Positions 40,548-62,250 of a DNA stretch of 64,000 bases are shown piece by piece. Each line of letters begins with the position of its first letter. Position 1 is the stretch's first letter. The notes below the pieces were generated by a model. That model ran no database searches, was not told the DNA's origin, and was given only the letters and a program-made list of their open reading frames with translations. Position numbers and translations under genes: made by a program. Source of the DNA: Saccharomycodes ludwigii (taxonomy: Eukaryota; Ascomycota; Saccharomycetes; Saccharomycodales; Saccharomycodaceae); NCBI RefSeq assembly GCF_020623625.1, contig NC_060201.1, forward strand, positions 372,001 through 436,000, given 5' to 3'.

Positions 40548-41557
40548 ATGACAACTCTAATGACCAACCTTCCTGTTGATTCTAGGGCCCCTTTAAAACA
40601 AGAACATAACACTTTAATAATGTCTAATAATAATAACAATAACTTGCTACAAAGTGAAAATGAGGATGAAGAACACGAAAATAATATAAATCATCATAAT
40701 AAAAATATCTTAACTGAAGAAGAGGAAAAAGAAGAAGTTAGTATAGATAGCCAAGAAAATATTATTACTCATACCTATACTCCTACTAGTGTTAGTAGTA
40801 CAAGTAGTACAAGTACTAATAATAGTAATATTATCAATAATGATAAAAATAACAGCGATAATAATGCCAGTATTAATAGCAATATAGGTAGCATAGTCAG
40901 TGCTACTGCTAGTCCTATTAATAATCAAGAGAGCCAAGATAGTAATGTTGGTACTGATATTGAAACTTGCAGTACTGCTATAAGTACGAATAACTTAAAT
41001 GTTATGACAACTCATAATAGTAATAATAATAATAATAATAACACTGCCGCTGAAACCAATGCTATTAATGACACCACAGTGGAGGAAATGTTGAATGAAG
41101 GCGGTAAAACTTTATCTAATGAGGATGATACTCATATACAGATTAATACTTATACTAATTCTAGTAATGCTATTACCAATGCTAATAATGACAATATTAA
41201 TGCTGATGTTAATGCTAATACCAATCCTGTTAGTGTTAGTACCAACACCAACAATAATCCTGGTACTATTAGTACGTCCACTAATGCCAACATCAAAAAC
41301 ATAAAAACCAACAATAACAATCAAGGAAAATCCATTGTTAAATTCAAAAATAACACCGCTAACAATAATACCAAAAATAACGCCACTTCGGTAAATACGA
41401 GAACTAAATCAAATTCTTCTGCTAGTTCAAACGAAAGTGCTGCCTCTAGTACATGTTCTTTAACTTTTAAAAAGGAAAAAGTTGTATCAAAACAAAGAAC
41501 CCAGTCTATACAGAGTGTGCTAAGCAATATTTCATTAAGAAGTGCATTATTAAATCA

Positions 41558-41593
<36 letters not shown>

Positions 41594-43864: not shown

Positions 43865-46219
43865 TCATGTTTGATTTCTATTTTCTCTTAGAGTCTTTAC
43901 AATTTTAGAACTCAACTTGCGTTGTTTAGAAATACTATTCTCTACACTGGAATCACTATCAAATTCTTCTTCTGGATGGGAATCAACAATTTCAAAATCT
44001 GACGAGATACTGCCAGCAGTACTACTCACACTACTGCTTATATTAACACTATTTGAAAAGATTGGGATATTAGACAATGAATTATCGCTATTGATCAAAG
44101 AGACAGCATCTGAATCATCAGTAACAGTCAAACTACTGGCGGTATTAGTATTAGCACCTGATTTTTGTGACCGCTTTCTATTATGTTGTTGTAACTTCTT
44201 TCTACGTTTCAATTCGTTGGTGATCGACTCCTGTAAGTCGTCATCATTATCATTGGTACTGTCTTTATTTATTTCATATAGTTTTTCTCTTAACCCCTCA
44301 GCTGTAAAATCTGGAAACAATTCCGGACCCAAAGTATTAACCAGCTCAGTGATTTTTAAGGCTAAAATCTCCCGCTCCTTTTCCAACTCAGAGATTGTTG
44401 ATGGTTTAACAATAGATAAATACAATGGCTTTAAGCTTTTGAAAGTATCCATACCGATATCACCAAAGATTAGAGCACTATAAGTAACTGTACAACATAA
44501 TATATATGAGATGGCAAATTTAACGAAATACGAAACGTTATTCGTTGGGTTGATTACGTTATTATAACCGTACACCAAAATAACAGACCATCCAATGTAT
44601 AAAATTGGAGCTAATCCCATTGCAATCAAAATTTTCCAGGTGGCAACCACATCATTTGCCTTAATTTTAACCGTAGAATTGGCCAAAGCTTCGGCTGCCT
44701 TTCTACTGGAGATTTTCTTAGACGCAATAAAGATGGGTGAAAACATAATGAAACCAGGTAGACTCAGTAGGGATAAAAATAAAATACGCACACTTCTTTG
44801 GATTAGAACCATTAAATTTGTTTTCCAATTAGTATTGGCGAAAATTTTTGCGGACTCAACTTGATGATCTGGAATGTTGTAATTCATCAAATGGGAATTG
44901 TAAAGTAACACATCTTTTTTTAAACTTTTAATACGATCGTCATTTTTGAAAGTTTCATAACCAATAACCAATCTTCTGTTCATTTCAATAATCATAGACA
45001 AAGGCATATTGCTGGACAAATACCCTGAATATAATCTCCTTGTAGCTTGTATGGCCATTAAAGTTTCATAATCTGGACAAGTGACCGTGACTGCTTTTAA
45101 TCCTTTTGTAATTAGGTCTAACAACTCTTTCACTTGTTGTCTATTTGACTCAGGATTTTCATAGTTGAGCACCATTTTTTTTGTGATTTCAATTGGTTCA
45201 CCGAATTCAACCACAGCCCTACTTCTAAATTTATGAGGATGGAAATAATTCATACCACAAGGAACGATTTTAACGTTTAAATCTTTATGTTTGGACATAG
45301 CACCAAGAGCCATCAATGCCACGCCTGCTTTTAATGGTAAAAGATCAGTTCTGTCATGCGAACCTCCTTCAGGGAAAATACCAATGTTTTTACCTTGATT
45401 TAAATGTTCAAAAACTTTATGATATACTTTACTTTGATCGATCTTGGGGGAATACTTGAAAGTGGTTCCATTCTTCAAAAGTTTAACAACTTCAGGTTTG
45501 TTCATTTTAAACTCTTTACGAAGAAGTAATTCATGCTTATTCAATATCTTATCAATAGCTGTACTGCCTAAGCCTTTTGGTAAACTAATTAATCCCCTTT
45601 CCTGAAGTTTTGTAAAATCGGTATCTTCGTCACCAACAATTTTCAACGAATTGTTACTTTCTGGATCAATGTATATTTTGCCGGGCATCAATTTCATATT
45701 ATCTTGAGGTCTAGTGACACCAATAGACATTAAAAATCTAGCCAAAGTACCAACTGCTGGCCTATGTAGCGATTTTTCGGCAATTAAAAAACTCATGATT
45801 TTATTCACGTTTTTTTTAACTTGTCCAACTAAAATGATTGGGTCAACAAATTGATTGGCATGTGGTGCAGCAACAAATATAATGGGGTCATCTCTGCCTG
45901 TTTTGGGATTGATTGTTTTCGGAATGTGATATGCTCCTCTTGTTCTGATTTCCCTAAAGAAACAGTCAAAAATATGGACCATTACCCACAAGAAACAATT
46001 ATACATCAATATTCTATACCATGGTTGCTCACCCTCGTTGGTAGCAACATTACTATTTTCAAGGTTTTTGTTGGGAGTGGTTTGTATTTTAGGAGATTTT
46101 TCATTTTCAAAAGATTTATTAACATTGGTATTGATTGGATCAATACTAGTATGTAGTTGTTGTTTCTTATTTTCTCTCTTTCTTTTCTCTGAGAGTAGTA
46201 AGGGTTGTTCTGAAGACAT
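43865..46219 (-). CDS. SCT1: Glycerol-3-phosphate/dihydroxyacetone phosphate acyltransferase Sct1
   Basis: A 784-residue ER enzyme for the first step of glycerolipid synthesis; S. cerevisiae Sct1 (Gat2) is 759. The N-terminus is basic, followed by a hydrophobic stretch (MYNCFLWVMVHIFDCFF). The acyltransferase motifs are FVAAPHANQFVDP, SFLIAEKSL, NIGIFPEGGSHDRTDLLPLKAG and VKIVPCGMNYFHPHKFRSRAVVEFGEPIEI. Two or three C-terminal membrane segments follow (near 470-500 and 535-595). The phosphoregulatory-type tail has SLINSDNSLSNIPIFS, as in Sct1. PQDNMKLMPGKI and PDHQVESAK fit Sct1 better than its relative Gpt2. SCT1 is YBL011W, next to LAA2 in S. cerevisiae but separated from it here by the inverted block. 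Confidence 0.93.
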   Translation of the reverse strand: MSSEQPLLLSEKRKRENKKQQLHTSIDPINTNVNKSFENEKSPKIQTTPNKNLENSNVATNEGEQPWYRILMYNCFLWVMVHIFDCFFREIRTRGAYHIPKTINPKTGRDDPIIFVAAPHANQFVDPIILVGQVKKNVNKIMSFLIAEKSLHRPAVGTLARFLMSIGVTRPQDNMKLMPGKIYIDPESNNSLKIVGDEDTDFTKLQERGLISLPKGLGSTAIDKILNKHELLLRKEFKMNKPEVVKLLKNGTTFKYSPKIDQSKVYHKVFEHLNQGKNIGIFPEGGSHDRTDLLPLKAGVALMALGAMSKHKDLNVKIVPCGMNYFHPHKFRSRAVVEFGEPIEITKKMVLNYENPESNRQQVKELLDLITKGLKAVTVTCPDYETLMAIQATRRLYSGYLSSNMPLSMIIEMNRRLVIGYETFKNDDRIKSLKKDVLLYNSHLMNYNIPDHQVESAKIFANTNWKTNLMVLIQRSVRILFLSLLSLPGFIMFSPIFIASKKISSRKAAEALANSTVKIKANDVVATWKILIAMGLAPILYIGWSVILVYGYNNVINPTNNVSYFVKFAISYILCCTVTYSALIFGDIGMDTFKSLKPLYLSIVKPSTISELEKEREILALKITELVNTLGPELFPDFTAEGLREKLYEINKDSTNDNDDDLQESITNELKRRKKLQQHNRKRSQKSGANTNTASSLTVTDDSDAVSLINSDNSLSNIPIFSNSVNISSSVSSTAGSISSDFEIVDSHPEEEFDSDSSVENSISKQRKLSSKIVKTLRENRNQT

Positions 46220-46418
46220 TGGTTAGTGTATATTTATGAGCAATTAGAAAGTGTAATTGGGATAAATTATTCAGTATAAAGGGAAAATACTGGGAAAAGC
46301 AAGCAAGCAAACAAACAAACTTGTATGGGATAAATGTATGTAATTCAATTTAATCTAAAATTAAAAAAAAAAAAAAAAAAAAATTTAAAAAAAAAGAAAT
46401 AAAAATGATAAAAAATTA

Positions 46419-46490
46419 CTCCGATACGGGGAGTCGAACCCCGATCTCCACGGTGAAAGCGTGATGTGATAGCCGCTACACTATATCGGA
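46419..46490 (-). tRNA. tRNA-Glu (anticodon TTC)
   Basis: 72 nt, read on the minus strand from TCCGATA (46490) to TATCGGA plus discriminator G (46419). The acceptor stem is perfect; the anticodon loop CTTTCAC gives TTC at positions 34-36, and the T arm is GGGGTTCGACTCCCC. The sequence matches yeast tRNA-Glu(UUC) almost base for base. A T-run follows on the same strand (46407-46411 and beyond) as a pol III terminator candidate. It is identical to the second copy at 58346. Confidence 0.97.
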
Positions 46491-46577
46491 AATATCCGGA
46501 AAATTGTCAATTTTTGTGTTAGTTACTAAAGAAAAAAACAAACATACCATACAAATCGACAGAATTTAACATTTTAA

Positions 46578-46608
<31 letters not shown>

Positions 46609-46793
46609 GCCTTTTTTCTGTCCCTTAACATCGCTGCAACATATTTTTAAAAGAAAATAAAGAATCAAATTAAAAAAATATATGATTTACTTTTCTAACA
46701 ACTGGCTGACTGACTCACATCTCTAATTCTCAAAAACCAAAAAAAAAAAAAGGAAAGAAAAATATATCCCTTTCTCCCACTCCATTTTTAATC
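46491..46793. promoter_or_regulatory. Region between tRNA-Glu and JAC1
   Basis: 303 bp that include a T-tract (about 46582-46608) and the JAC1 promoter. No LTR-like remnant is evident near the tRNA. Confidence 0.4.
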
Positions 46794-47477
46794 ATGCTTA
46801 GAATCATACTAAAGGAAGCCAATAAAGGTCAAATCAACAAATTTCATCCCACTACTTTTTTAACCCATTCCTTACGTTATATATCATACTTTCAAATATT
46901 CCCCAAATCATTTCCAAATATCACAGATCTCACCACTAGTATCGATTTAAACACTGGAAATAATATCAAACGTAATCACGCTTTATTATCCAAATTATGG
47001 AATGTAGATTTATATAAGCTAAGAAGAGAATACAGATCGCTACAAAGTAAATCACACCCTGATTTGATTAAACAACAGTCTACTACCATTGATGGTGATA
47101 CCAATAAAAGTATCGATAGTTCTTTATTGAACAGAGCATATCAAACACTTAAATCTCCTTTGAAAAGAGCACAATATATACTTAAGGAAGCCACAGGAGT
47201 TGATTTGACCAGCGAGGAGTTTCCAGAAAAGTTCAAACCAGACGCACAAATACTAATGCAAATAATGATGGTTCATGAAACCTTGGAAGAAATAACTACC
47301 GAAGAAGAAATTATTAAGCTAAAACAAGAAAATAGAGCAAGAATGAGTGAAATAATTAATAACTTGACAGATGCATTTAATAAAGGTGATTTGGACAAAA
47401 CTATTGAATTAGCTGTTGCCTTAAAATATTGGACAAATTTAGACGATGCTATTAAGGAATGGGAGCCAAAAAACTAG
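46794..47477 (+). CDS. JAC1: Mitochondrial Fe-S J-protein co-chaperone Jac1 (HscB)
   Basis: A 227-residue type III J-protein; S. cerevisiae Jac1 is 184. It delivers the Isu scaffold to the Hsp70 Ssq1 during Fe-S cluster transfer. The N-terminal ~60 residues are rich in Lys/Arg/Ser/Thr with few acids and probably form the presequence. The J domain runs from about 62 (LLSKLWNVDLYKLRREYRSLQ) with the HPD triad at 88-90, then LLNRAYQTLKSPLKRAQYIL, the family's equivalent of helix IV. The C-terminal helical bundle (LMQIMMVHETLEEI) is the Isu-binding part. Divergent from tRNA-Glu and convergent with CKB1. Confidence 0.94.
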   Translation: MLRIILKEANKGQINKFHPTTFLTHSLRYISYFQIFPKSFPNITDLTTSIDLNTGNNIKRNHALLSKLWNVDLYKLRREYRSLQSKSHPDLIKQQSTTIDGDTNKSIDSSLLNRAYQTLKSPLKRAQYILKEATGVDLTSEEFPEKFKPDAQILMQIMMVHETLEEITTEEEIIKLKQENRARMSEIINNLTDAFNKGDLDKTIELAVALKYWTNLDDAIKEWEPKN

Positions 47478-47558
47478 AAGACATATGACTACTAATTTGT
47501 TGCTGTAAAACATGTCCCTTATTTATGTATTAAAATCTGCAATTAAAATTAGACTTAA

Positions 47559-47583
47559 ATATATATATATATATATATATATA
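47559..47583. repeat. AT dinucleotide repeat
   Basis: About 12 AT units in the convergent gap between JAC1 and CKB1. Confidence 0.9.
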
Positions 47584-47659
47584 AATCTTGTAAATAATAC
47601 AAAAATAAAAATATAATAAATGAAAAATATAGGGGGGAAAAAATGCCCTTTGTTGACTT

Positions 47660-48297
47660 TTACTTTTCAGTGTTGTTACCATTTTCTTCTATCCCTCCAT
47701 CATTTTCGTTAGAATTGAGATCTCTCTCACCATTGGCCAATAATCCTCTAGGTAAGCTAAATTCACATAATTTAAACTCGTCTATTTCTTGAGCATCACA
47801 AGGCCATTGTCTCAGCCACTTCATTCTACTACCACTAGGAGAAACTTCACTAATCTTAAAACCAAACACTTTTAATTGGAATTGTAATTGTATAGGATTC
47901 TTATTATTTTTCCTATTGTCACAATAATCATCCAACTCTTTAAAATTATTTAAAAAAACACCTGGAAAACTAGTACCCCAAAATGAACCATCTAAAAATA
48001 AGTGAATAGATGACCTGGGCATATATATATCTTGACAATTTGGACAATATAGTTTAACAGTGCTTTCCCCCAAAGTATCGCTTAACCCAGTTGGTAATAG
48101 TTGCATCCCCCCACATAAGTATCTGGGGCAACATCCGAACATTTTATTATCATACTTTTCAGCCATTGCTTGTAGCCCTTGCCTTGTTAAAATGTATCTG
48201 GCATGAATTAAGCCATACAATTGTTCTGCATAATGTTCTATAAGTGTTCTTTTGTTTGTCGTAGCTGTGTTTCCATTAGACTTGATACTTTTGCTAC

Positions 48298-48344
<47 letters not shown>

Positions 48345-48793
48345 CCACTATTATTACTAGTAACAGTTGTCTTAGAAGCGGTACCATCATTATTGTTGAT
48401 ACTTAACATATCTTGATCACCATCGTTATCAACACTTACGCTCATCTCTGTTTGTTCTTTGCCGTCCATTTCTTCGTCATCATCGTCATCTTCGTCATCA
48501 CTTTCCAAATCTAAGATCAAATCCAATGCCTTTCTATAATATGGAATTTCATTTGATAACCCAGTTAAATTAAAATCATCCTCTATAAATTCAGGTGGAA
48601 CTTCACAAAAATATTCATGACCAAAACGTGATACGAATGCAGGAATCCATTCTTCATAAGAGGACGTAGAGGCAGAAGAGGAATTTGAATTTGAATTAGA
48701 TGTTGCTGTTGTGTTAGCGGATACTGCAGAGGAGGACGAAGAAGAGGTTACACTTGATGATAAATTACTATTGTTAGTAGCTGATGGCTTCAT
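47660..48793 (-). CDS. CKB1: Casein kinase 2 regulatory (beta) subunit Ckb1
   Basis: A 377-residue CK2 beta subunit; S. cerevisiae Ckb1 is 278. After a Ser/Asn/Thr-rich start, the conserved body begins with YEEWIPAFVSRFGHEYFCEVP and FIEDDFNLTGL, RKALDLILDLE. The acidic loop (EDDDDDEEMDG) is expanded by an Asn-rich insertion of about 35 residues. Then come EHYAEQLYGLIHARYILT and the zinc-binding set CPRYLCGGMQLLPTGLSD and YCPNCQDIY, which forms the dimer interface. GTSFPGVFLNNFKE and the end MKWLRQWPCDAQE match Ckb1 rather than Ckb2. It is divergent from GET1, as CKB1 (YGL019W)/GET1 (YGL020C) in S. cerevisiae. Confidence 0.93.
48301..48350. repeat. ATT/AAT trinucleotide tract in CKB1 encoding an Asn run
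   Basis: A nearly pure ATT (AAT on the coding strand) run that encodes 4 Asn, Thr, then about 10 Asn. Likely length-polymorphic. Confidence 0.85.
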
Positions 48794-49217
48794 TGTGCAT
48801 ATAGTACTGGCTTGATAAATTCTTTGTTGATATTGTTGCTGTTGTTTGCAAGAATTGTTTTTTTTTTTTTTTTAATTTTAATTTTATTTTTTTCCTCTTT
48901 TTTTCTTTTTATGCGTTCTCTTTGTCTTGTGTGTATAACCCGGCCAAAAACAACATCAATAGCAGTTTATGTCCGCTAGCCGAAGTGCCAGAATGTCCGA
49001 GATGATTTTTGTAATTTAAAAGTTTTTTTTTTTTTCAAGTTTTTTTTTTCCAGTTTTTTTTTTTCCAGTTTTTTTTTTTTTCATAAATTTTTTTCTATTT
49101 TTGTTTTATTTTTTTTGCTTGTTTTTGTATTCTACTTTTTTTTTTTTTGCTTAATCTTACAAAAAAAAAGGCTTAATAACAGACAATCACGCTAGTACAG
49201 CAACTCTGAAAAACATT
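48794..49217. promoter_or_regulatory. Divergent CKB1/GET1 promoter
   Basis: 424 bp. A G/C-richer patch at 48935-49010 includes ATAACCCGG, a Reb1-like site with one mismatch, flanked by long T-tracts. No gene visible. Confidence 0.45.
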
Positions 49218-49952
49218 ATGGACTTTCATATTTATCTGACTTTGCTTTTCATTTTTATAATAAGATTAACTAAACACATCACAGTTCCAGAATCTTTAAT
49301 AACCGCTATATTTGCACCATCAGCATACAATGTACAATTAAAAGAATATAACGAATTGTTGAAGCAAAGAAGAGAGCTAAACAATGAGCAAAACTTACTA
49401 AGTGCTAAAGATCATTACGCCAAATGGACAAAAAACAACCGTAAGTTGGATAAACTAAACAAAGAAATCTCCAGTAAGGGAGAACAATTACTGAATATGA
49501 AGAATACCTTTATAAACAACGCTGGCAAGTATAAAGTCATTTTGATCACTTTGCCCTTTTTTTTTGTCAAATTTTATTTTGGCAAAAGATTGGTCTATAG
49601 CTTTAACACTACTGACATTGGTACCCACAATAATATTGATAAAATGTTTCCCAAATATTTCCAAGTGTTATGTACTGTTGGTTGGTTTGGTCTTCCTATT
49701 TTATTCATCAAAAAGTTTCTTTTGGAAATTTTTGGTGAAAATTCAACCCTTGGTATGAAGTTGGCTGGTAACAATAATTTTCTTTTAACTTCTGGTGTTT
49801 CTTTAGGAATTTGGATTTGGGCATTGGAAAAAATAATTGATGAAATTGAATTTGTTGTACAGAACTTGTTTGTTAAAATCGATAAACCAACAATTGCGAA
49901 CGATAAAGAATATACCACTTCAGCTGTCCCATCTACTGCTGAATTAGATTAA
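49218..49952 (+). CDS. GET1: GET complex receptor subunit Get1
   Basis: A 244-residue ER membrane protein; S. cerevisiae Get1 is 235. With Get2 it receives Get3 loaded with tail-anchored proteins and inserts them. The first membrane segment is at residues 4-22. The cytosolic coiled coil follows (about 45-100) with the diagnostic SAKDHYAKWTKNNRKLDKLNKEI, which contacts Get3. The second segment is at about 108-125 (VILITLPFFFVKFYFG) and the third near 190-215 (TSGVSLGIWIWALEKIIDEIEFV). The order and lengths fit the family. The promoter is shared with CKB1. Confidence 0.93.
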   Translation: MDFHIYLTLLFIFIIRLTKHITVPESLITAIFAPSAYNVQLKEYNELLKQRRELNNEQNLLSAKDHYAKWTKNNRKLDKLNKEISSKGEQLLNMKNTFINNAGKYKVILITLPFFFVKFYFGKRLVYSFNTTDIGTHNNIDKMFPKYFQVLCTVGWFGLPILFIKKFLLEIFGENSTLGMKLAGNNNFLLTSGVSLGIWIWALEKIIDEIEFVVQNLFVKIDKPTIANDKEYTTSAVPSTAELD

Positions 49953-50412
49953 GGCTTGTTCGCTTTTAATTAAAAAAAAAAAAAAATAGTTTTTATATAA
50001 GCATATTGAATAATGATAGTGATAAAAATAACAGTTTATTCTTCCCTTTTCCACTTTACCTTATTATAAACTTATATAAATAGATAATAACTAAAAAAAA
50101 AAAAAAAAAAGATAATCCTTCACTAAAAGGTTTATATTCAATAAAAATTACTATACATGTGCATATTATAATACCAGAAACAAAAAAAAAAAAAAAAAAA
50201 AAAGGCTAAAATTAAAACCAAAAATAAAAGTAAAATTAAATTTAAAAATATCGAAGTGAATAAATGTATAAATAATAATAATAATAATAATAAAGTATAT
50301 TGCTAATAAAATACTCTATTGTATGGGAGAAGTGAAAGATTTATCAAAAAAATATACATATGTGCGTCTATATGCACAATAATGTGCCAAAAGGCAGTAC
50401 TATTCATCATAG
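49953..50412. other. Convergent GET1/haspin intergenic region
   Basis: 460 bp with three A-tracts (49970-49986, 50094-50110, 50185-50204) and an AAT run at 50275-50294. No gene visible. Confidence 0.5.
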
Positions 50413-53400
50413 CTATTTACCATGCGTTTTTAAATCTTGGCAACTTAATATCTCACCTTGATGATTTAAAATCATAGCATACCATTTACATAAAACATCA
50501 TAATGTTTATCCCTAATCTTGCATGATTTAACCATTTGTTGTAGAATATATTTAATCCACACAACATTTGCCCATCCAATTAATTCGGTGACAGCACCAT
50601 TACTGGTATTGTTTTGTAACATGTACGGTTCTAATTGTCGTAATTCAGAATAAACATCATAATGTGGTGATCTGATAAAAAATAAAGGATGATCCAACCT
50701 TGTGTATATTTGCGTATCGCCACCCATTTTACACAATTTATAATCTATAACGGTCACTTTACCATTTGAATCAACCAAAATATTATCTAAATTCAAATCC
50801 CTATGCTCAAACTGATATTTAACTTCCCAACTAGCTAAAACATTAACTAATTGCCAAAATATCTTGGACAATGTTCTTGATGGGACATTAGGTTTTTCAA
50901 TTAATACTTGTGATAGCGGTTTGCCCCTACTTTCCATTTCTATAATCAACAGGCAACTATGTCCATCTCGCTCGTCATTATCTAACAAATTTGTCCTATC
51001 CAGCTGATCTGCAGTACAATTTGTAGTACTAGTTACTCTTCGTTTCGTAATTATCAACCACTTTTTAGAGATTATGGAAGATCCTGTCTCATTCATCAAT
51101 TTGTGTGATATTTTTATGTCGTTAACTATCACTGGTAACATAATATGATCTGTACAATCGAACGCGACTAATTTGTAAATTTTGTTTTTTACAGGATTAA
51201 ACAAAACTCTGGTATTTCCACGCTCATACAGAATATCCCCATCCAACACATCTTTAGGTAATTTATATGATTTTTCATCGACTAATTGTTGCAATTCCTG
51301 GTACGCTTTTTCGGATATAGCCATGTTGTTATTATTCATAGCCACAATAAAACTATTATTACTACTACTTACCGATGTTATTGTAGAATTTAATGTGGAT
51401 GTAGATACAGAAAGTTTAATAGATTCTGATGTGTTGTTAATCATACTCGTGTTATCGCTACCATTTGAAATCGAGGAGTTATTGTAGCTAGCAGTAGCGT
51501 TAGTGGTTGAGCTTCCCAATTTCATTCTAATTTTTTCTAAAGAAGCTTTATCGGGTATTGGAAGTGAGATATTACTATTACTACTATTGCCAAAATTAAA
51601 ACTATAAGTAGAACTATTGGATAATGGTGTATTTGGTGGGGTAATATTGCTATTGCCGCCACTATTCAGGTTTATCTGTGATGTTAATTTTTTCAATGAA
51701 GGGTTACTTGTTCTATTTCTTAGACCTAAGGATGTTTGTGAATTTCTATTTCTTAAACTTGCCTGTGAACTTCTATTTCTTAAACTTGCCTGCGAACTTC
51801 TATTTCTTAAACTTGCCTGCGAACTTCTATTTCTTAAGCTTGTTGAGGAAGCCCTATTTTTCAAGGAATTGTTCGTTGCTGTATTAGTAGATGAGGATGA
51901 TGAAACTAAGGTAGAGCAGTCGTTATCATTGCTGTTGCTAATGGCAACAGTAGCGTTATTATTATTATTATTGTTACCACTATTGAAAAACAATTGTTTT
52001 TTTAATTCACTGAATGACTTTTTATGTTTTGCAGAAGGTGGTATGTTGCTCATACTTTGACTATGTTGGTGTCTTAGGGTATTATCGGGGTTAGTATTAT
52101 TACCAATAGTCGTTGCTGGTACAAAAAAGACATTAGCTCCATCGTTAGTAGTTGAAACTGCAGCATCATTCTGAAAGTTAAGATTCCCGTCGCTATGTGC
52201 TGCCTCATACAAATTAGAGACAGAACTTCTTCTTTTCCAAAATTTCCATGATCTACCAGATGCTATACTACCCAAGCTAGATAATGATGGTGATTGGTTT
52301 AATCGTCTATTAGTATTGTAGCTAGTAGTGTTTTCGCGGTCGATGGATAAATTTTCCGCACCAAGTTTTTTATTACTGGCAGTATTTCTAAAAATCGATG
52401 ACTTCTTGGTAGCAATTCCCCTAATGTTTGTCTTAATAGCGTTATTTGTGACGCTAGTATTACCGTTGTTATTGCCCGTAATGTTAATAGTGGCTGCATT
52501 TTTCATTTTACCAGTAACATTTATTCTTTTACTGTTAATGCCATCAACATTGCCCACGATTTTTTTGTTTTTGACAAGTGTAGCAGTAAAACCATTACTA
52601 CTGGCTGTTCCGCCGGAAATATTATGATGATCCGAAGTAATAACAACTTCAGGGACAACTTTCTGCTCTTCCACAGATGGACTACTTATCGAGAAAAAAG
52701 TTTTCAAACTACTCGCTGTGGATGATGTTTTTTTCAACGATTGCAAACTGGAAGTCGAGAATCTTTTACTTTTGGTGGAAGATGGTGTATTGGTAGAATG
52801 TTTGTTAATGTTGGCGTTCTCCCCAGAAGTGTAGCTGTCTCTTTTATTATTATTAGAGCTAGCATTAGTATTGGCAGTTCCATTGCTGGTACTGGTACTG
52901 TTGTTGATGCTAGTGCCAAGGGTGGTGATAGTTCCGGAAGAATATCTTTTCTTGGAAGATGAGGAAAAACTATTTTCGGATCTAAATGATAAAGTGGACC
53001 ATCTTTTCTTTGAGGATGAGTTATGTGCACCGGTGCTAATAGTGCTTACGTGTGCATTTCTAGTAGGTGTTACAGTGATCGAATTAGTCACAATAGTTGA
53101 GGAAGTGCCATTATTGGACGTAGTAACGCCCGAAGTGATTGTTGTGGAACCAGATTCCTCATACTCTACTTCTTCTTTCGCCTGCTCCTCGACATCTTTT
53201 ATGAATATAGGTGAATTGATGACAAGACCATTGTTACTATGATTATTTTCATTAGTGTTCCCTGACAATTGTTCATTATGAACAATATTTGTAATATTTT
53301 TCATTGAAATCTTTCTTTCACCAACACTTGAAGTACTCCTCCTTTTAATACTGTTATTCGATCCAACCTTGGTGCTAAGAACAGTGGTCGTGTTATTATT

Positions 53401-53652
53401 TGAAGTGCCAGTAATAATAAGGTCAGAATCAACACTTTTTATCCTAGGAATGATATTTTCCTTTTCATTTTCATACTCACAATCGGAATCTTTCATACTG
53501 TCATCATCATCATCTTCTTCGTCATCATAATTAATTTCCATGGCAATAAATTTTCTACTAATAGAATCATTTTTATTATCATTGGCATCGGAAAAAAACT
53601 CAAAAGATGTATCGGAAGTTAAGGTTGTTGTTGTGGGAGTGGGGGTTTGCAT
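50413..53652 (-). CDS. ALK1: Haspin-family protein kinase (ALK1/ALK2)
   Basis: A 1079-residue kinase; S. cerevisiae Alk1 and Alk2 are 760 and 676. Haspin phosphorylates histone H3 Thr3 in animals; the yeast enzymes act in mitotic polarity and the metaphase checkpoint. About 780 residues of Ser/Asn/Thr-rich sequence come first. They include a KEN box at 64-66 (EYENEKENIIPR), an APC/C degron known to matter in Alk1, and a 9-residue tandem repeat of the LRNRSSQAS type near 597-650. The divergent kinase domain is C-terminal: catalytic loop HRDLNLDNILVDSNG near 947, then VIDYKLCKM with DYK at the DFG position, as in haspins. WKF WKRRSSVSNL near 480 is a basic motif. LAA2 follows, as at ALK2 in S. 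cerevisiae. Confidence 0.92.
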   Translation of the reverse strand: MQTPTPTTTTLTSDTSFEFFSDANDNKNDSISRKFIAMEINYDDEEDDDDDSMKDSDCEYENEKENIIPRIKSVDSDLIITGTSNNNTTTVLSTKVGSNNSIKRRSTSSVGERKISMKNITNIVHNEQLSGNTNENNHSNNGLVINSPIFIKDVEEQAKEEVEYEESGSTTITSGVTTSNNGTSSTIVTNSITVTPTRNAHVSTISTGAHNSSSKKRWSTLSFRSENSFSSSSKKRYSSGTITTLGTSINNSTSTSNGTANTNASSNNNKRDSYTSGENANINKHSTNTPSSTKSKRFSTSSLQSLKKTSSTASSLKTFFSISSPSVEEQKVVPEVVITSDHHNISGGTASSNGFTATLVKNKKIVGNVDGINSKRINVTGKMKNAATINITGNNNGNTSVTNNAIKTNIRGIATKKSSIFRNTASNKKLGAENLSIDRENTTSYNTNRRLNQSPSLSSLGSIASGRSWKFWKRRSSVSNLYEAAHSDGNLNFQNDAAVSTTNDGANVFFVPATTIGNNTNPDNTLRHQHSQSMSNIPPSAKHKKSFSELKKQLFFNSGNNNNNNNATVAISNSNDNDCSTLVSSSSSTNTATNNSLKNRASSTSLRNRSSQASLRNRSSQASLRNRSSQASLRNRNSQTSLGLRNRTSNPSLKKLTSQINLNSGGNSNITPPNTPLSNSSTYSFNFGNSSNSNISLPIPDKASLEKIRMKLGSSTTNATASYNNSSISNGSDNTSMINNTSESIKLSVSTSTLNSTITSVSSSNNSFIVAMNNNNMAISEKAYQELQQLVDEKSYKLPKDVLDGDILYERGNTRVLFNPVKNKIYKLVAFDCTDHIMLPVIVNDIKISHKLMNETGSSIISKKWLIITKRRVTSTTNCTADQLDRTNLLDNDERDGHSCLLIIEMESRGKPLSQVLIEKPNVPSRTLSKIFWQLVNVLASWEVKYQFEHRDLNLDNILVDSNGKVTVIDYKLCKMGGDTQIYTRLDHPLFFIRSPHYDVYSELRQLEPYMLQNNTSNGAVTELIGWANVVWIKYILQQMVKSCKIRDKHYDVLCKWYAMILNHQGEILSCQDLKTHGK
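51700..51865. repeat. 27-bp tandem repeat inside the haspin gene
   Basis: Five or six copies of a unit that encodes LRNRSSQAS. The central three are nearly identical at the DNA level, which indicates recent tandem duplication; outer copies are diverged. Confidence 0.85.
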
Positions 53653-53924
53653 AAATACAGAGGAAGATGAGTAATATTCTTTGGTTTTGATCCAAAAAAA
53701 GAAAAAAAATAAATTTCCCCTTACAAGTTAGGAATATATTAAAAGGTGGGATAAAGTGTTTTTTTTTTTAATTAGCTGAACCTTTGGCAAGTGATGGTAT
53801 GTTGTTGAGATGTTGTTATTAAAAGAATCAAAAAGAAAAAAGAAAAAAGAGGAAAAAAAAGAAAAAAAAAAAAAACCAAGAGTGTTATTTAAAAGAAAAG
53901 GATAAATTTGTTTCCTACTTTGAA

Positions 53925-53930
<6 letters not shown>

Positions 53931-53955
<25 letters not shown>

Positions 53956-53960
53956 CAAAA
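53931..53960. repeat. CAAAA pentanucleotide repeat, about 6 copies
   Basis: Perfect CAAAA units upstream of the haspin gene. Confidence 0.9.
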
Positions 53961-54233
53961 TCTAAAACAAACAAAAACAAAAACAAAATCTTTGTGAAAA
54001 AAAAAAAAGGGAAAAAACCACCAAAAATCACCAAAAACAAAACAAAACAAAAATAAAAAACGCAATTTGTGCCACAGAATAATTGCCAGCCTGGCCTTAT
54101 AAAAACATCCGTACCTTTGAAGTTAGTAATTTCGCGTGTTTCATGATGTACTGCGCGATGTCTGAGCAACAATGCGTTTAGATCGGATCTATTGATTGAT
54201 TTATGATACTTATTCCAAATATACGCGGAATAT

Positions 54234-54239
54234 ACGCGT
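54234..54239. promoter_or_regulatory. MluI cell-cycle box ACGCGT
   Basis: Palindromic ACGCGT, the binding core of the yeast G1/S factor MBF (Mbp1-Swi6), with a near copy ACGCGG 11 bp before. Haspin-type kinases are cell-cycle regulated, but the site is 580 bp from that ATG and 257 bp from the LAA2 ATG. Confidence 0.35.
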
Positions 54240-54495
54240 GTTCGGAATTCGGAACAAGAATTATTGCGTGCATTTTCTTTTTTCATTGAATACCAAAATA
54301 AATCATTTTATACAAAATTTTGTTGTGTCAATTATTTATTACAGTGCCTAAAAGTATCAAATTGTTTTTGGTCCAGTATCTATAATAAATATATCGGAAA
54401 TCATCTTCTTTTTCCCTTCAAAGCAACTAACTCTTTATTTTATTTTACTTTATTTTTGGAACAGTTGAGAAGAAGAAAAAGAAAAAGAAAAAGTA

Positions 54496-55491
54496 ATGAG
54501 CTCTGATAGTGATAGTGATTTCGGTAATTTTTCAGATGCATCTTTTGAAGAAGAAAATGATTTTAAAACTGAGAATGAAGTCGCTAATCAAATATTGGAG
54601 AAAGATTTAAAAGATGGAACAGAAAAAAAACAACAATTAACTGTTGGAAATCAAAATGACATACTTGAACGACCAACTAAGGTAGCTTCTCATGTGAATT
54701 ATGATGATCTGATTAATAATTATTTGAATGATTTGTTATCTACACCAAACCCAACCTATAAGACTGATGATCCTGCCGAAAATAGCACCGAGAAATATAC
54801 TTTTCAATTGGACGAAAGAAGTACCATTATTTATCAACAATTAGTATGCTTACCATTCCAAGTACATCCCTTTAATTGGAATCAATCTCATTTACGTATT
54901 TTACTTTTACAAATATTGAAAATAAAAGACCATACTTTAAATGCTGCTGCTGCTGCTGCTGATAAAAATGACGATAATTTGAGTGCTATTAATAAAAGCA
55001 ATGCAGCTTGCTATGACGAACAACCCAACATTGTTAACAGTGATAAGCTAGACAAATTAAGAGATCATACTTTATTCGATAAACTTATGCAAAAAATACC
55101 AACAACACTAAAAAATGCAGATGGTGATGTCAACCCTACTACTATAAGTTCTGGAATTTGTCAGGAATTAGACATTCCAACCGACATTTTCCATGAATAT
55201 ATAGAAAAATTAGTTAGTTTACAAATAAAACAAGCCAACCTATTGGATATCAAATCCACCTATGAACAAGTTATTACGAATCTAGTGGGACATACTCAAC
55301 GTATTAGGAGAGAAGAGATTGAAAAGTACAATAAAAAAAAGAATAGTAACAACAGCAGCATCAATAGTAGAAACGGGAGTGGTCTACTTAGGAGACGAAG
55401 TATCAAAAATAACCCTGGAACAAAGGGAAATGACGGTAACACGTCTACAAATACCAGTAAAAGTAAAAGATTCAGTTGGATAATGGGATGA
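54496..55491 (+). CDS. LAA2: Laa2-like clathrin adaptor accessory protein
   Basis: A 331-residue soluble protein. The N-terminus MSSDSDSDFGNFSDASFEEE carries the acidic FGNFSDA motif, the type that binds the gamma-ear of AP-1 adaptors; this fits Laa2/aftiphilin proteins, which link Laa1 to AP-1 at the trans-Golgi and endosomes. The middle (VNYDDLINNYLNDLL, IIYQQLVCLPFQVHPFNWNQSHLRILLLQILKIK) looks helical and conserved, and the C-terminus is basic and Ser/Asn-rich. The identification rests on the motif plus position: in S. cerevisiae LAA2 (YBL010C) is next to ALK2 (YBL009W) on the opposite strand, exactly as here. I do not remember the Laa2 sequence well enough to confirm it residue by residue. 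Confidence 0.65.
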   Translation: MSSDSDSDFGNFSDASFEEENDFKTENEVANQILEKDLKDGTEKKQQLTVGNQNDILERPTKVASHVNYDDLINNYLNDLLSTPNPTYKTDDPAENSTEKYTFQLDERSTIIYQQLVCLPFQVHPFNWNQSHLRILLLQILKIKDHTLNAAAAAADKNDDNLSAINKSNAACYDEQPNIVNSDKLDKLRDHTLFDKLMQKIPTTLKNADGDVNPTTISSGICQELDIPTDIFHEYIEKLVSLQIKQANLLDIKSTYEQVITNLVGHTQRIRREEIEKYNKKKNSNNSSINSRNGSGLLRRRSIKNNPGTKGNDGNTSTNTSKSKRFSWIMG

Positions 55492-55560
55492 AACTTATAC
55501 TCTACGGGAAGCTCGTTTCTTTTTTCATTTTTTATTTTCATTCTAAAATGATTTTAAATG

Positions 55561-55566
55561 ACATAC

Positions 55567-55601
<35 letters not shown>
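55561..55601. repeat. ACAT/AT compound microsatellite
   Basis: Four CATA units followed by about ten AT units in the convergent gap between LAA2 and STT3, which is otherwise free of genes. Confidence 0.9.
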
Positions 55602-55730
55602 AAGAAAATAAAGTAAAACCACACAGATAAAATAGTTTTAAATGATAATGTAATATAGAAAAAAATATGAATAGATATTGTTGTCACATAGTTATACATA
55701 ACTAACAAAAAAAGAAAAAATAGACGGTTA

Positions 55731-57935
55731 TTATAACAACCTTGGTTCCAAACGTGGTTTTTTAACAATTTTTTTCTGAGCAGCACCAGTTCTTTCAAAA
55801 TCAGCAACATCTTTCAAATTTCTGCCTTCAGGATCCAAGTCTTTCAACTTGTATATTCTAACCATCCAGTTTTCACTGGTAAAAGCCTCCTCAAAGTAAT
55901 CTAAATTACCAACATCCTGTGATCTAATAGTAGCCCCTCTAACTCTATCTACAGCGGGCATATTGCCTGCGGAAAATAACTCAGGGAAATTATGATAACT
56001 CAATTTGTACATCAAACTGTTTTTCATGGTATCGGTAGCAAATTCATCAACACGATATTGCCCATTTTCAGTGAAAAATTTTCTTTCTTGAATTTCCTCC
56101 GGCCAAATGCCCTCACTAATTCTAATCATCCACAGAAATTTATTAATATCATCACCGCTGTAGCCTAAAAGCCCGCCAAAGACAACTAGGACATAGTCTA
56201 CGTCTAATTCCTTATATATTTCATAAGCCTTGGCTTCAGGTGATGACATGGCCCTACCAACTATAGCAATGTGTGTATTGTTCCATGTGTTGTTATCAAC
56301 CAATGTAGTTCTATCAGCCATACCACCAATTTGGTAGCCGTAATCCCACCATGATGCAACTTTGCTATCTTCAGCGGTATTAGAACGCAACCAGTAGTAA
56401 GCTTCTCTGAAATCATCAATATAAACTGGGGAGCCGTCTTGATTAGTTTGGCCCGATAGTAGAACAACTGATGGAGAGGAATAAGCGTTGGAAGTAACCC
56501 AGGTACAATGGTACACAAAGAAAATCAAATAGCTCAAAAATACAGAACTAACAATCAAATTAGTAACCGTTTTGATTAGTCTATCAGTCTTGTTTTTGAT
56601 CACAGAGTCGCGGAAATCTAAATAAACGTGGAATAGCTTAGAAATTGTAATTGCAGCACAGACACATATAATCGGAGTTAATGTCAACATCAATCTGACC
56701 ATGACACCAGCAAAATACGAACACAACACAGAATAAGCGATAACAAATACATGCTCATCACGCAATTCAGTAAATAATAGAAAGACACCAACTGGGAATA
56801 GCCAAATCAAAAATTGCGTGTCAAAAAAAAAGGAAGACCAAGCAGTTGGCTGATGTTCAGAAACCGAGGCAATGATTGGAATGTGAATCTTGGCATAACT
56901 TGTATCCCATAAAGAGTAAAATCTACCGGTCCATGGTGCAATGAGGCCTAAATAGGTTAATCCCACAACACCCAAGATACCTATCCCGATTAAAATTAAA
57001 ATGGAAGAAGTTATAAAAATCTTGAAGTGGGCGCTGCTAATCTTACTTTTAATATGGTCAGCAATCATAACAAATTGCAATAAACCAAAAACACCCAAGG
57101 CACTCATATGGTCGTTAGATCTGATAGGTAGAAATCCAACAAATGGGATTTGCATTGAAGCCAAAGTACCGATACTAAACCAAGTGCAATATGCAGAATA
57201 TAATTTATGATTATATCTACCCATTAAAATCAAAAGAAAAACATGGAATGGAATTAAGTTGGTAATGAAAACATATCCACCCCAGGCGCTAACCATGTAA
57301 AAATACGATAGAGCAGCAAAAGTACCAAATGCAATACTACCGGTTTTCATGGCTTTAATCCATAAATAGAAGGAGGTCATTAATAATGTAATAGCGATAG
57401 CCTCATTATCGTATGAGCCCGCAACACTTCTGCTGATATAACCAGGGGCAATAGCAATAAAGGCAGCACTTAAAAATGCGGCAATTTCATCGTTGTGATA
57501 AACTTGTTTTGTGAATAGATATGTAGCTAATGCAGTAATACCGCTGAAGGCAGGTGCAAACAAAACACAGATGTTACGAATATCAATTGGTAAACCCAAA
57601 TAGTTGTTGAAAATATGCCAGACTAAACCAGAAGTGGTCATTAAACCTGGGTATAGGGTACCACCAGTAACTCTACCCAATGGATACCATGTCTTGTCAT
57701 CAAACCAATTTAGGAATTTATGGAACCCGTTGGCCACCAAATATTTAGTAGCTCTGAAATTAAACCATGGATCAAATTCGTGGATGATTGACTCAAAACG
57801 GATAACTGAAAACAAACGATTAGACGTTGCAGCACCTATTATACAAATAAATATAACAAGCTTCAAAAATGCTTTTATACCAAGCAATAACTGTTGTGAC
57901 GTGCAACAAGGAGAGGGGGAAGAAACAGTAGCCAT
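55731..57935 (-). CDS. STT3: Oligosaccharyltransferase catalytic subunit Stt3
   Basis: A 734-residue ER enzyme that transfers the dolichol-linked glycan to Asn-X-Ser/Thr sites; S. cerevisiae Stt3 is 718. The first membrane segment is at about 20-40. The first luminal loop has IHEFDPWFNFRATKYL with the metal-binding Asp near residue 55, and SYDNEAIAI follows in the next. About a dozen hydrophobic segments come next (to about 480). The luminal domain has the signature WWDYGYQIGGMADRTTLVDNNTWNN near 529 (shown here as the family motif, WWDYG at its head) and DK/MI-type residues after it. The family is almost invariant and this copy looks intact. The position next to LAA2/haspin matches YGL022W. 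Confidence 0.97.
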   Translation of the reverse strand: MATVSSPSPCCTSQQLLLGIKAFLKLVIFICIIGAATSNRLFSVIRFESIIHEFDPWFNFRATKYLVANGFHKFLNWFDDKTWYPLGRVTGGTLYPGLMTTSGLVWHIFNNYLGLPIDIRNICVLFAPAFSGITALATYLFTKQVYHNDEIAAFLSAAFIAIAPGYISRSVAGSYDNEAIAITLLMTSFYLWIKAMKTGSIAFGTFAALSYFYMVSAWGGYVFITNLIPFHVFLLILMGRYNHKLYSAYCTWFSIGTLASMQIPFVGFLPIRSNDHMSALGVFGLLQFVMIADHIKSKISSAHFKIFITSSILILIGIGILGVVGLTYLGLIAPWTGRFYSLWDTSYAKIHIPIIASVSEHQPTAWSSFFFDTQFLIWLFPVGVFLLFTELRDEHVFVIAYSVLCSYFAGVMVRLMLTLTPIICVCAAITISKLFHVYLDFRDSVIKNKTDRLIKTVTNLIVSSVFLSYLIFFVYHCTWVTSNAYSSPSVVLLSGQTNQDGSPVYIDDFREAYYWLRSNTAEDSKVASWWDYGYQIGGMADRTTLVDNNTWNNTHIAIVGRAMSSPEAKAYEIYKELDVDYVLVVFGGLLGYSGDDINKFLWMIRISEGIWPEEIQERKFFTENGQYRVDEFATDTMKNSLMYKLSYHNFPELFSAGNMPAVDRVRGATIRSQDVGNLDYFEEAFTSENWMVRIYKLKDLDPEGRNLKDVADFERTGAAQKKIVKKPRLEPRLL

Positions 57936-58345
57936 TGTGAAGCGATTGAGTCAATTATGTTTTTGTTTCTTGATGGTGTATTTCTTCGATGCTTGTGAAT
58001 TGTTTATGTAGCGTATTTGTGGGTAACCTTTAAAGAACAAAAATAAAAATGAAAATGAAAATGAAAATGAAAATGAAAATGAAGAGAGAAAACGATAGGT
58101 TTTGCTTTTTCATGGAATAAAAAAAAAAAAAAAAATAAAACAAAGGCGCAGTATGAAATTGTAATAAAATACAATTTTTTTTTTAATCAAGTGCGTGTGT
58201 TGTTCTCATTTTTTTTTTTTTCTTTCTTTCTTTCTTTCTTTGTTTTGAATGCGTGTATTTACAATTTTATGTAATAAAAATATTGTTGTGAGGAATTTGT
58301 ATTTAACACCAAGAAGCAATCAATAGAAGGAAAATCAAGAATATT
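57936..58345. promoter_or_regulatory. Region between STT3 and tRNA-Glu
   Basis: 410 bp with the STT3 promoter. Contains an AAAATG repeat at 58051-58082, an A-tract at about 58119-58135 and a CTTT repeat at 58221-58240. No gene visible. Confidence 0.5.
58051..58082. repeat. GAAAAT hexanucleotide repeat, about 5 copies
   Basis: Perfect GAAAAT units upstream of STT3. Confidence 0.9.
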
Positions 58346-58417
58346 TCCGATATAGTGTAGCGGCTATCACATCACGCTTTCACCGTGGAGATCGGGGTTC
58401 GACTCCCCGTATCGGAG
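58346..58417 (+). tRNA. tRNA-Glu (anticodon TTC), second copy
   Basis: 72 nt and identical to the copy at 46419-46490, but on the opposite strand, about 11.9 kb away. Acceptor stem TCCGATA/TATCGGA, anticodon TTC, discriminator G. The few bases just 5' (ATATT) are also shared. A T-run at 58453-58460 could end transcription. Confidence 0.97.
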
Positions 58418-58658
58418 TTAATATGACTCACAAACACAATTAATGTGTTTTATTTTTTTTACAGCTGTTACGATTACTCGCTTATTATTATTAGTATTAT
58501 TATTAGTATTATTGTTTTTGTATTCCGTTCTATACACACGCAGGTATAATTAAAAGTTTTTTTTTAGCTTCATATTTAATGTTTATTTAAAGGAGAGAGG
58601 GAAATAGGGAAAAAAAAAAACAATTAAAAAACATCTAGCTTTATATATGTCAACATAT

Positions 58659-59699
58659 CTAAGTAGCCTTTGTTTTAGTACGACCAGTAAAACCAGGAAT
58701 ACTTTTAGCAAAATCCTCATCAATATGTCTAAATGGGTTTTTAATACCGATTTGATTAATGTTGTCAACATCCTCATCCGTCAATAAAATATAATTTTGG
58801 AAATCTTTGGCAATTCTTTGCAAATTCAATGATCTTGGAATAACCACGATACCCCTCCTGATTAAATACGATATAACAATGTCATTGCCACTGCAATTGT
58901 ATTTCTTGGCCAACTCAACAATTTCAGGCAATTTTAAAATAGGAGCACCACTAGACCCCATTGGAGAATAAGCGGTCATCAAAATACCCTTTTCATGACA
59001 AAACTCAGCCAATTCCAACTGTGGACACTGTGGGTTAATTTCTACTTGATTGATTGCTGGGGTAATTTTGATATCTGGGTCAGATAACAACTTATTCAAA
59101 TATCCAATAGGATAGTTAGATACCCCAATGTTCTTGACTCTATGGTCGCGAGGATCTAGAACAATGGATTGTAATTGCTTGTATGTAGTTAAATAATCCT
59201 TTTCGGATTCAACAAGAGGCTCACCAGTTTCCGAGTCATGTGGTACACCAATATATTGAGGAACACCATTGCCATTGCTACCAGGCTTTAAAATTTTTGG
59301 AAAACACAATGGCCAATGTTGTAGGACTAAATCAACATAGTCCAATTGTAAATCTTTCAAACTTATGTCGATAGATTCACTGGCATTATCCCAATAAACT
59401 GGCCAAACTTTGGTAGTGATGAATAAATCCTCTCTTTTAACTTTACCTCTAGAGAAGACCTCTTGTAATGCTTCTCCAATGAACTTTTCAGTACCATAAA
59501 ACCAAGCAGTATCTATATGTCTTAGTCCACCTTTTTCAATAGCTGTAATTACGGCTTCTTTTGTTTCCGGTGCTCTATCACTAGGAGATGCGGTACCTAA
59601 TCCAACCACCGGGATGATTTGTGAGCCTAAACCTGGCACGTTATTTTTTAGAGTAAAATAGATTTCGGTTGTTGAGGGATGACTTTGACTTTTAGACAT
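58659..59699 (-). CDS. ARA1: NADP-dependent aldo-keto reductase, D-arabinose dehydrogenase type
   Basis: A 346-residue enzyme; S. cerevisiae Ara1 is 344 and oxidises D-arabinose and reduces diketones. It starts with TTEIYFTLKNNVPG, as in Ara1. The AKR catalytic set is present: HIDTAWFYGTE (Asp and Tyr), ITTKVWP (Lys) and LVLQHWPLCF (His). IGVSNYPIGYL, INQVEINPQCPQ and the cofactor-binding IVVIPRSLNLQRI complete the TIM barrel. The end IDEDFAKSIPGFTGR matches Ara1. Divergent from ATE1. ARA1 (YBR149W) does not belong to the flanking gene order, so this gene or its neighbourhood has moved. Exact substrate cannot be told from sequence, as the family is broad. Confidence 0.88.
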   Translation of the reverse strand: MSKSQSHPSTTEIYFTLKNNVPGLGSQIIPVVGLGTASPSDRAPETKEAVITAIEKGGLRHIDTAWFYGTEKFIGEALQEVFSRGKVKREDLFITTKVWPVYWDNASESIDISLKDLQLDYVDLVLQHWPLCFPKILKPGSNGNGVPQYIGVPHDSETGEPLVESEKDYLTTYKQLQSIVLDPRDHRVKNIGVSNYPIGYLNKLLSDPDIKITPAINQVEINPQCPQLELAEFCHEKGILMTAYSPMGSSGAPILKLPEIVELAKKYNCSGNDIVISYLIRRGIVVIPRSLNLQRIAKDFQNYILLTDEDVDNINQIGIKNPFRHIDEDFAKSIPGFTGRTKTKAT

Positions 59700-60462: not shown

Positions 60463-62250
60463 ATGGAATTATCAGATAGAGTAATCATCTCAAAACCTTT
60501 ATATATCAAAGAACCTGCTAAACATTGTGGCTATTGTAAAGGAATGAAGGATGAAAGTTTCAGAAGTTATTTTAGTTTAGATTCATGGTACAATTTACAC
60601 AATAAGAATGGTAGAGATGATCTGGATAATTTGGAATTTAATAATTGTACACTAGGGCTCCAAGCAGAACTAATTCCAGTTGAGATATATGATGAATTGT
60701 GCAACATGGGATTCAGAAGGAGTGGCAATTTTTTGTATAAACAAGATTTACTAAGAAATTGCTGCAGATTATTCACCATTAGGACTACCTTTGAACAATG
60801 TAAATTATCTAAGGAATTGAAAAGTTGTATAAAAAGGTTTAAAAAAAAAATGGTAACACAACAAATACCGTTACCATCGCGCAAACAACAGCGCAAACAG
60901 GAAGCTTTTGACATGATGAAGGAATTGTATGAAATTGAAAAATACAGCGACACTTTTTATACCAAGTTCGAGCCTAGTGTTTTCTCAAAGGCAAAATATG
61001 AATTGTTTATTAAATACCAAAATCAAGTTCATAATGATTATAAAACTAGTGAAGAGTCATTTAAGAGATTTTTGTGTCAAAGTCCATTCCCCGAAGACGT
61101 GGTGGCAGGCACAAAAGAGGAATGGGAAGAATTAAATAATTGGCAAAAAACTTATGAGGAGGAATTTATTGATTGCACTGTCGATAGCAAAATACGAAAA
61201 CCCTTTAAAAGAATCGGACCAGTCCATGAATGCTATTATTACAATGATAAGTTAATTGCACTTGGTGTTTTGGATTTTTTGCCCAGTGGTATTTCGTCAG
61301 TTTATTTTATCTGGGACCCTGACTTCCATAAACTCAATTTAGGGAAAATTAGTGCCCTACATGAATTAAGTCTAGTTGAATTATCTAAAAAAAATTATTA
61401 TTATTTGGGATATTATATTGAAGATTGTACAAAGATGGTTTATAAGAAGAAATTTGGTGGAGAATTATTGGATGTTTGTAATAATCAATATGTTCCATTA
61501 CATATAGTTGAACATATGATCCAACATGGAAAATTCTTTGTATTGTCTAATCGTAAAGGTCGGGGGATCGTCAATAAAGAGCAAGAGGGGGAGGAGAAGG
61601 GAGAGGACACTTATGACGATGATGAAGAAGAAGACGAAGAAGACGAAGAAGATCACTATGAGCTACCTATAAATAACAAGATCAAATTTGATTTAAATAA
61701 ACCATTAATTAATATAGCCGAAAAGATATATGGAGAAAAGGAGGGCTTAGCTACTCATAGTGCCAACTTGTCAATTAATAAATTGATGGATTATGGTATT
61801 GAATATACTCCCGAAATTTTCAACGATTTATATAAGTTAAAACCACTAAAATTACCAATTGTTTTGAACAATAATAACAGGTTTTTTGATGGTGGTGCTA
61901 CTGATAACGATGACAATATTTTAACAAACAACAAAATGGAAGATGAGGAAAGCAGTGAAGAGGAATTTTTTGAAGAAGAAGATGGCGATGTACCGGGATA
62001 TACTAAAGAGATATATAGCATTCCAAATGTGGTTCCAGGACTATTGCCGATGTGGCAAATATTACAAATAATTGAGAGTGGTGAGATTGACCGGTTGAAC
62101 AACAAATTAATGATTTATAACACTAGAAATGGACAGGTTAGATTGGTTAGAGATTTTTCAAAGGAAAGTAAAAGAACTAAAAGATGTATTTGCAATGTTA
62201 TTAGATTACTGGGACTAAAGATAACCGCTAAATCCTTGATTATTATTTAG
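60463..62250 (+). CDS. ATE1: Arginyl-tRNA--protein transferase Ate1
   Basis: A 595-residue enzyme; S. cerevisiae Ate1 is 503. It adds Arg to N-terminal Asp, Glu or oxidised Cys, which makes Arg/N-degrons. The N-terminal domain keeps HCGYCKG (Cys 22 and 25) and LLRNCCRLFTIR (Cys 100-101), the cysteines reported to bind an Fe-S cluster. GFRRSGNFLYK lies between them. The C-terminal GNAT-like domain has GVLDFLPSGISSVYFIWDPD and YYLGYYIEDCTKMVYK. Two acidic insertions, near residues 370-400 and 490-505, account for most of the extra length. The extreme C-terminus is basic. In S. cerevisiae ATE1 (YGL017W) precedes KAP122 (YGL016W), as here, on the same strand. Confidence 0.94.
   Translation: MELSDRVIISKPLYIKEPAKHCGYCKGMKDESFRSYFSLDSWYNLHNKNGRDDLDNLEFNNCTLGLQAELIPVEIYDELCNMGFRRSGNFLYKQDLLRNCCRLFTIRTTFEQCKLSKELKSCIKRFKKKMVTQQIPLPSRKQQRKQEAFDMMKELYEIEKYSDTFYTKFEPSVFSKAKYELFIKYQNQVHNDYKTSEESFKRFLCQSPFPEDVVAGTKEEWEELNNWQKTYEEEFIDCTVDSKIRKPFKRIGPVHECYYYNDKLIALGVLDFLPSGISSVYFIWDPDFHKLNLGKISALHELSLVELSKKNYYYLGYYIEDCTKMVYKKKFGGELLDVCNNQYVPLHIVEHMIQHGKFFVLSNRKGRGIVNKEQEGEEKGEDTYDDDEEEDEEDEEDHYELPINNKIKFDLNKPLINIAEKIYGEKEGLATHSANLSINKLMDYGIEYTPEIFNDLYKLKPLKLPIVLNNNNRFFDGGATDNDDNILTNNKMEDEESSEEEFFEEEDGDVPGYTKEIYSIPNVVPGLLPMWQILQIIESGEIDRLNNKLMIYNTRNGQVRLVRDFSKESKRTKRCICNVIRLLGLKITAKSLIII

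Follow-up and report, generated by a model that had tools for sequence, protein, structure and literature searches.

A six-gene reversed block between two inverted tRNA-Glu genes of Saccharomycodes ludwigii: a candidate for inversion through tRNA recombination

Background

Transfer RNA (tRNA) genes at the breakpoints of yeast synteny have already been described, and the block reported here is a new instance. On the lineage of Saccharomyces cerevisiae, Gordon, Byrne and Wolfe (2009) inferred 73 inversions, reported breakpoint reuse and found tRNA genes at breakpoints around three times above chance, for which they list recombination of one tRNA copy with another among the possible causes (PMC2675101). 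The ends of the synteny clusters between Ashbya gossypii and S. cerevisiae are also often marked by tRNA genes, and recombination via tRNAs has been suggested for them (PMC3276169, citing Dietrich et al. 2004). Furthermore, repeats including tRNAs are enriched where structural variants of S. cerevisiae strains have their junctions (PMC10412453). Here we analyse a stretch of 64 kb of the yeast Saccharomycodes ludwigii (the window, bases 372001-436000 of the 2,348,663 bases of contig C2; positions below are those of the window unless the contig is named), in which six genes, from JAC1 to STT3, lie reversed in order and strand between two identical, inverted tRNA-Glu(TTC) genes. We favour, with a probability of roughly 0.6, an old small inversion via ectopic recombination between these two tRNA genes over simple breakage.

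The same pattern was reportedly seen by Kellis et al. in 2003, who are said to have found inversions between Saccharomyces species flanked by opposite-orientation tRNA genes of one isoacceptor type, although those species are close relatives and the distance here is far greater. The block resembles the cases of Gordon et al., since it would be a local inversion of small size that has tRNA genes at its junctions and involves breakpoint reuse; unlike them, it belongs to another yeast family and has the same isoacceptor inverted at both ends, an arrangement for which the available parts of that paper give no numbers (PMC2675101). As in Ashbya/Eremothecium, where tRNA recombination has been proposed to drive gene-order change, the yeast is one without whole-genome duplication, but there the subject is synteny-cluster ends in general and here a single inversion (PMC3276169). 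In the Phaffomycetales, rearrangements near centromeres tend to be small inversions, insertions and deletions, or arm exchanges, a pattern that agrees with the block being ordinary (PMC12711049). A literature search over titles and abstract openings gave no publication on this locus, and the word "inversion" has 0 occurrences in the main text of the S. ludwigii genome papers PMC8567612 and PMC7903802.

The S. ludwigii genome is described as having 12.5 Mb, 7 chromosomes, 30.9% guanine plus cytosine (GC) and MATalpha on chrE, with a synteny that resembles that of pre-duplication yeasts (PMC8567612). Our searches of this species' genome covered 12,500,424 bases in 8 contigs and gave one match for MATalpha, on contig C5; the GC content of the window is 31-32%.

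The tRNA pair and the reversed genes

ARAGORN finds two tRNA genes in the window, both tRNA-Glu(TTC), at 46418-46491 (-) and 58345-58418 (+). The same two, and only these, are found with Rfam RF00005, at 46419-46490 (-) and 58346-58417 (+), with 61.9 bits each; the left one lies between the SCT1-like gene and JAC1, the right one between STT3 and an ARA1-like gene. They are therefore of the same isoacceptor and in inverted orientation, and they are identical in 72/72 bases, or in 78 consecutive bases if the common flank is included. An earlier note, written from the sequence alone, had described this identical and inverted pair correctly.

Read from left to right, the genes are PGD1/Med3 (-), FMT1 (+), an ABCC transporter (-), PIB2 (+), SCT1 (-), tRNA-Glu (-), JAC1 (+), the regulatory subunit of CK2 (-), GET1 (+), haspin (-), an open frame of 123 residues (-), LAA2 (+), STT3 (-), tRNA-Glu (+), an ARA1-like reductase (-), ATE1 (+) and KAP122 (+). 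The reference for this comparison is the S. cerevisiae gene order and strands. Against it, PGD1, FMT1, ATE1 and KAP122 keep one sense, whereas eight genes are strand-reversed, namely PIB2, SCT1, JAC1, CKB1, GET1, haspin, LAA2 and STT3. The six from JAC1 to STT3, with strands + - + - + -, are opposite in order as well as in strand, and the tRNAs flank this six-gene block at both ends. However, the left tRNA falls inside the eight-gene set and divides it into PIB2-SCT1 and JAC1-to-STT3, two pieces that are each reversed without a change of place.

The earlier note was thus right about the reversal of the six genes, whose identities Pfam and PDB support, but not in stating that the block is bounded exactly by the tRNAs, because the PIB2-like and SCT1-like genes to the left of the left tRNA are also reversed and the ARA1-like gene stands between the right tRNA and ATE1. 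SCT1, the transporter and the reductase are absent from its gene list, and it names PIB2 only as a neighbour that it expects in the ancestral order. Regarding its four anchors in one orientation, FMT1 and ATE1 hold, PGD1/Med3 is weakly supported (E 9e-4) and KAP122 has no match in Pfam, its name being one that we assume from position. The enlargement of the reversed set to eight genes falls in turn if the FYVE and acyltransferase genes described below are not orthologues of PIB2 and SCT1.

The junctions and the other tRNA-Glu copies

Four junction queries (46300-46600, 46492-46793, 57936-58344 and 58419-58658, with 46220-46299 left out) were compared with the genome. Besides themselves they matched further tRNA-Glu genes and otherwise nothing but short stretches that are AT-rich or of simple sequence, and when one junction was compared with the other the sole long match was the tRNA with a few common bases (78 bases). 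No long terminal repeat (LTR) or other long dispersed repeat was found at the junctions with these four queries, and we therefore rejected such a repeat as the cause of the block ends.

The genome search skipped simple repeats and scored only the best candidates, and the counts of tRNA-Glu loci are lower bounds. At least 11 Glu-TTC copies are present, the two of the window and those at nine of the ten further loci examined, and all 11 are identical over 72 bases; the tenth further locus is Glu-CTC. The flanks common to the window pair comprise 5 bases upstream and 1 downstream (6 in total). We considered this common flank as a trace of recent recombination and rejected it, since 4 other pairs of the 55 that 11 copies can form share more.

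At other loci the similarity goes further. Around their tRNA-Glu genes, loci L021 and L022 can be aligned with L015, the first over 243 bases and the second over 288, at around 79% and well past the tRNA. These are possibly relics of tRNA-targeted LTRs, and such similarity was not seen at the window pair.

In order to judge the role of chance, we estimated how often two given junctions would carry inverted tRNAs of one isoacceptor. The result, which is rough and ignores the many junctions from which a reader can choose, is 1.4e-5 to 7.9e-5, or 2.2e-6 for Glu-TTC alone. It is based on 133-316 tRNA genes and 5030 intergenic spaces, and the mean share of a family is assumed to be 1/25. The lower number of tRNA genes is 169 B-box matches minus 36 in the control (another B-box pattern search of the genome gave 79 matches against 4 in the control), and the higher one is 5347 minus 5031 genes (PMC8567612). 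Our own genome-wide tRNA count is a lower bound, with the best 63 of 914 candidates scored in the Rfam search.

Genes in and around the block

Between the two tRNAs, JAC1, the HSCB co-chaperone (46794-47477, +), is identified by Pfam HSCB_C and by PDB JAC1 with E 2e-28. It is followed by the CK2 regulatory subunit (47660-48793, -; Pfam CK_II_beta and PDB), which we take to be CKB1 by its position, by GET1 (49218-49952, +; Pfam CHD5 and PDB GET1) and by the haspin kinase (50413-53652, -; Pfam), the sole match over the cut-off in the genome search. LAA2 (54496-55491, +; Pfam YBL010C_LAA2) and STT3 (55731-57935, -) close the block, the latter with Pfam support, 1155 bits to PDB 6c26 (STT3) and one match in the genome. 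Pfam gives no match for the open frame (-) of 123 residues that separates haspin from LAA2.

Outside the tRNA pair there are two further strand-reversed genes. One encodes a FYVE protein (40548-43505, +; Pfam FYVE and PDB FYVE domains), presumably PIB2 by exclusion, and the other an acyltransferase (43865-46219, -; Pfam Acyltransferase), which we assume from its position to be SCT1-like. The unreversed anchors are FMT1 on the left (34003-35256, +; Pfam Formyl_trans) and ATE1 on the right (60463-62250, +; Pfam and PDB).

The junctions of the reversed pieces hold two more genes, an ABCC-type transporter between FMT1 and PIB2 (35617-39915, -; Pfam and PDB) and an ARA1-like aldo-keto reductase between the right tRNA and ATE1 (58659-59699, -; Pfam, and PDB 4ijc, the heavy chain of D-arabinose dehydrogenase, with E 5e-108). 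Neither is known from these positions in S. cerevisiae, and the arrangement resembles gene gain at breakpoints. The ARA1-like gene, unexpected here and beside a tRNA gene, is like the gene-gain sites of Gordon et al. (PMC2675101).

Origin of the reversed order

The favoured history would begin with two inverted tRNA-Glu(UUC) genes at the ends of the STT3-to-JAC1 segment, which would have recombined ectopically, either by a crossover or because one tRNA served to repair a break, or a stalled fork, at the other. The 12-kb segment would have been turned over in place in this way, with a tRNA remaining at both of the new junctions. A separate event with the same left junction would have inverted PIB2-SCT1 next to it, which probably makes two uses of the left tRNA site. 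Two adjacent inversions with a common SCT1|JAC1 junction are the simplest account, which assumes FMT1, SCT1, PIB2, STT3 as the ancestral order. Neither SCT1|JAC1 nor STT3|ARA1 is known as a junction in S. cerevisiae. We infer each of the three elements, that is, the recombination through tRNA genes, the ancestral order and the two events; recombination between tRNAs is the best mechanism because the same isoacceptor stands inverted at both new junctions and no other dispersed repeat was found. The mechanism given in the earlier note therefore keeps its support from isoacceptor, orientation and the lack of another repeat, and loses that of the exact bounding.

Several points weigh against this history. 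The reversed set, with eight genes, exceeds the tRNA-bounded block, and in the comparison with S. cerevisiae PIB2, SCT1 and CKB1 are named by position or exclusion. The outer left junction (FMT1/PIB2) has no tRNA or tRNA remnant according to Rfam and to a short-word BLAST of the window: a single CrcZ match that Rfam gives there is below threshold and falls within the FYVE gene, and the BLAST of the tRNA gives, besides the two genes, only matches of 10 and 11 bases. Therefore, the PIB2-SCT1 event needs another cause. Local reversals are also seen without tRNAs: to the right, LEU1, SCL1, MPO1, ERG4 and PUF4 are reversed as well, in a region (C2:434001-464000) for which ARAGORN gives no tRNA. In addition, the identity of the pair gives no weight because all 11 Glu-TTC copies found are identical. 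Several junctions differ from those of S. cerevisiae, and the tRNA link covers two of them.

The first alternative, which we regard as unlikely, is that tRNAs only mark fragile junctions, where forks stall and break, and that end-joining inverted the block, the two tRNAs being of the same kind by coincidence or by later gene conversion. Fork stalling at tRNA genes has been proposed by Gordon et al. (PMC2675101) and in PMC8150848, and the identity of the 11/11 Glu-TTC copies is consistent with gene conversion. However, inverted tRNAs of the same isoacceptor at both ends do not follow from breakage alone, which thereby loses a further factor of around 50 (assumed as 1/25 x 1/2).

A history of another polarity is more doubtful still: the order in the window might be the ancestral one, or the product of a rearrangement in several steps, with the inversion in the S. 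cerevisiae lineage and the tRNAs present for other reasons. Such a history would fit with eight reversed genes instead of six and with the two extra genes at the junctions. Moreover, the Saccharomycodaceae lie outside the Saccharomycetaceae, and a two-way comparison cannot set the polarity. Nevertheless, the genes on either side of the block (PGD1, FMT1, ATE1 and KAP122) are consistent in sense, as would be the case for a local inversion in one lineage.

Finally, a living flip-flop, with both orientations of the block present within the species today, as the earlier note suggested in saying that the block may still flip, is very improbable: the inverted tRNA copies are still intact and identical, but the identity covers only 72-78 bp and is general to the Glu-TTC copies found, and two S. 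ludwigii strains are reported to be highly collinear, in a source that makes no statement at 12-kb resolution (PMC8567612).

Surroundings

To the left of PGD1 we found NMA, ECT1, a DUF4112 gene, PRP18, TFG2, PEX30/31, CWC24, CUL3, SWC4, MMS22, BUD6 and EST2. Under these yeast names, the sequence follows an interleaved YGR002-010 and YLR318-328 order; the gene order of the window would thus interleave genes of two S. cerevisiae chromosomes. In the gap between EST2 and PGD1 (29260-31885) there is a small nucleolar RNA of U18 type (SNORD18, 30338-30451, +), and the open frame that comes right after it (30602-31201, +) reads like the translation factor EFB1. The U18 of S. cerevisiae is encoded within the EFB1 intron, and this host-intron arrangement seems to be conserved.

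The reversed genes to the right of the window (LEU1, SCL1, MPO1, ERG4 and PUF4, loci L011-L013) lie in C2:442413-460455, where the neighbouring HIR1 and the interposed SLA1 are not reversed relative to the S. cerevisiae strands. MPO1 has no match in Pfam and its name is one that we assume. ARAGORN finds no tRNA in C2:352001-372000 either. Another locus, L010, holds at its positions 437-6994 (-) an open frame of 2185 residues, whose first 30 residues are like a signal peptide and are followed by a serine/threonine-rich part; judging from this composition, it is perhaps a cell-wall protein.

Significance

The block adds one more candidate tRNA-mediated inversion, in the Saccharomycodaceae, outside the family for which the sources cited here describe the tRNA link. 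In S. ludwigii meiotic crossing over is reported to be almost absent (PMC8567612), and for this reason inversions should carry little of their usual cost in fertility. A bolder idea, which we consider quite improbable, is that tRNA-Glu acts as a reusable hinge, since the left tRNA site would be common to two inversions made in place side by side, and that tRNA-mediated inversions may drift or flip more freely in this yeast than in others because heterozygotes for an inversion would lose little or no fertility. Inversion counts in S. ludwigii would test whether the fertility cost limits gene-order change in other yeasts.

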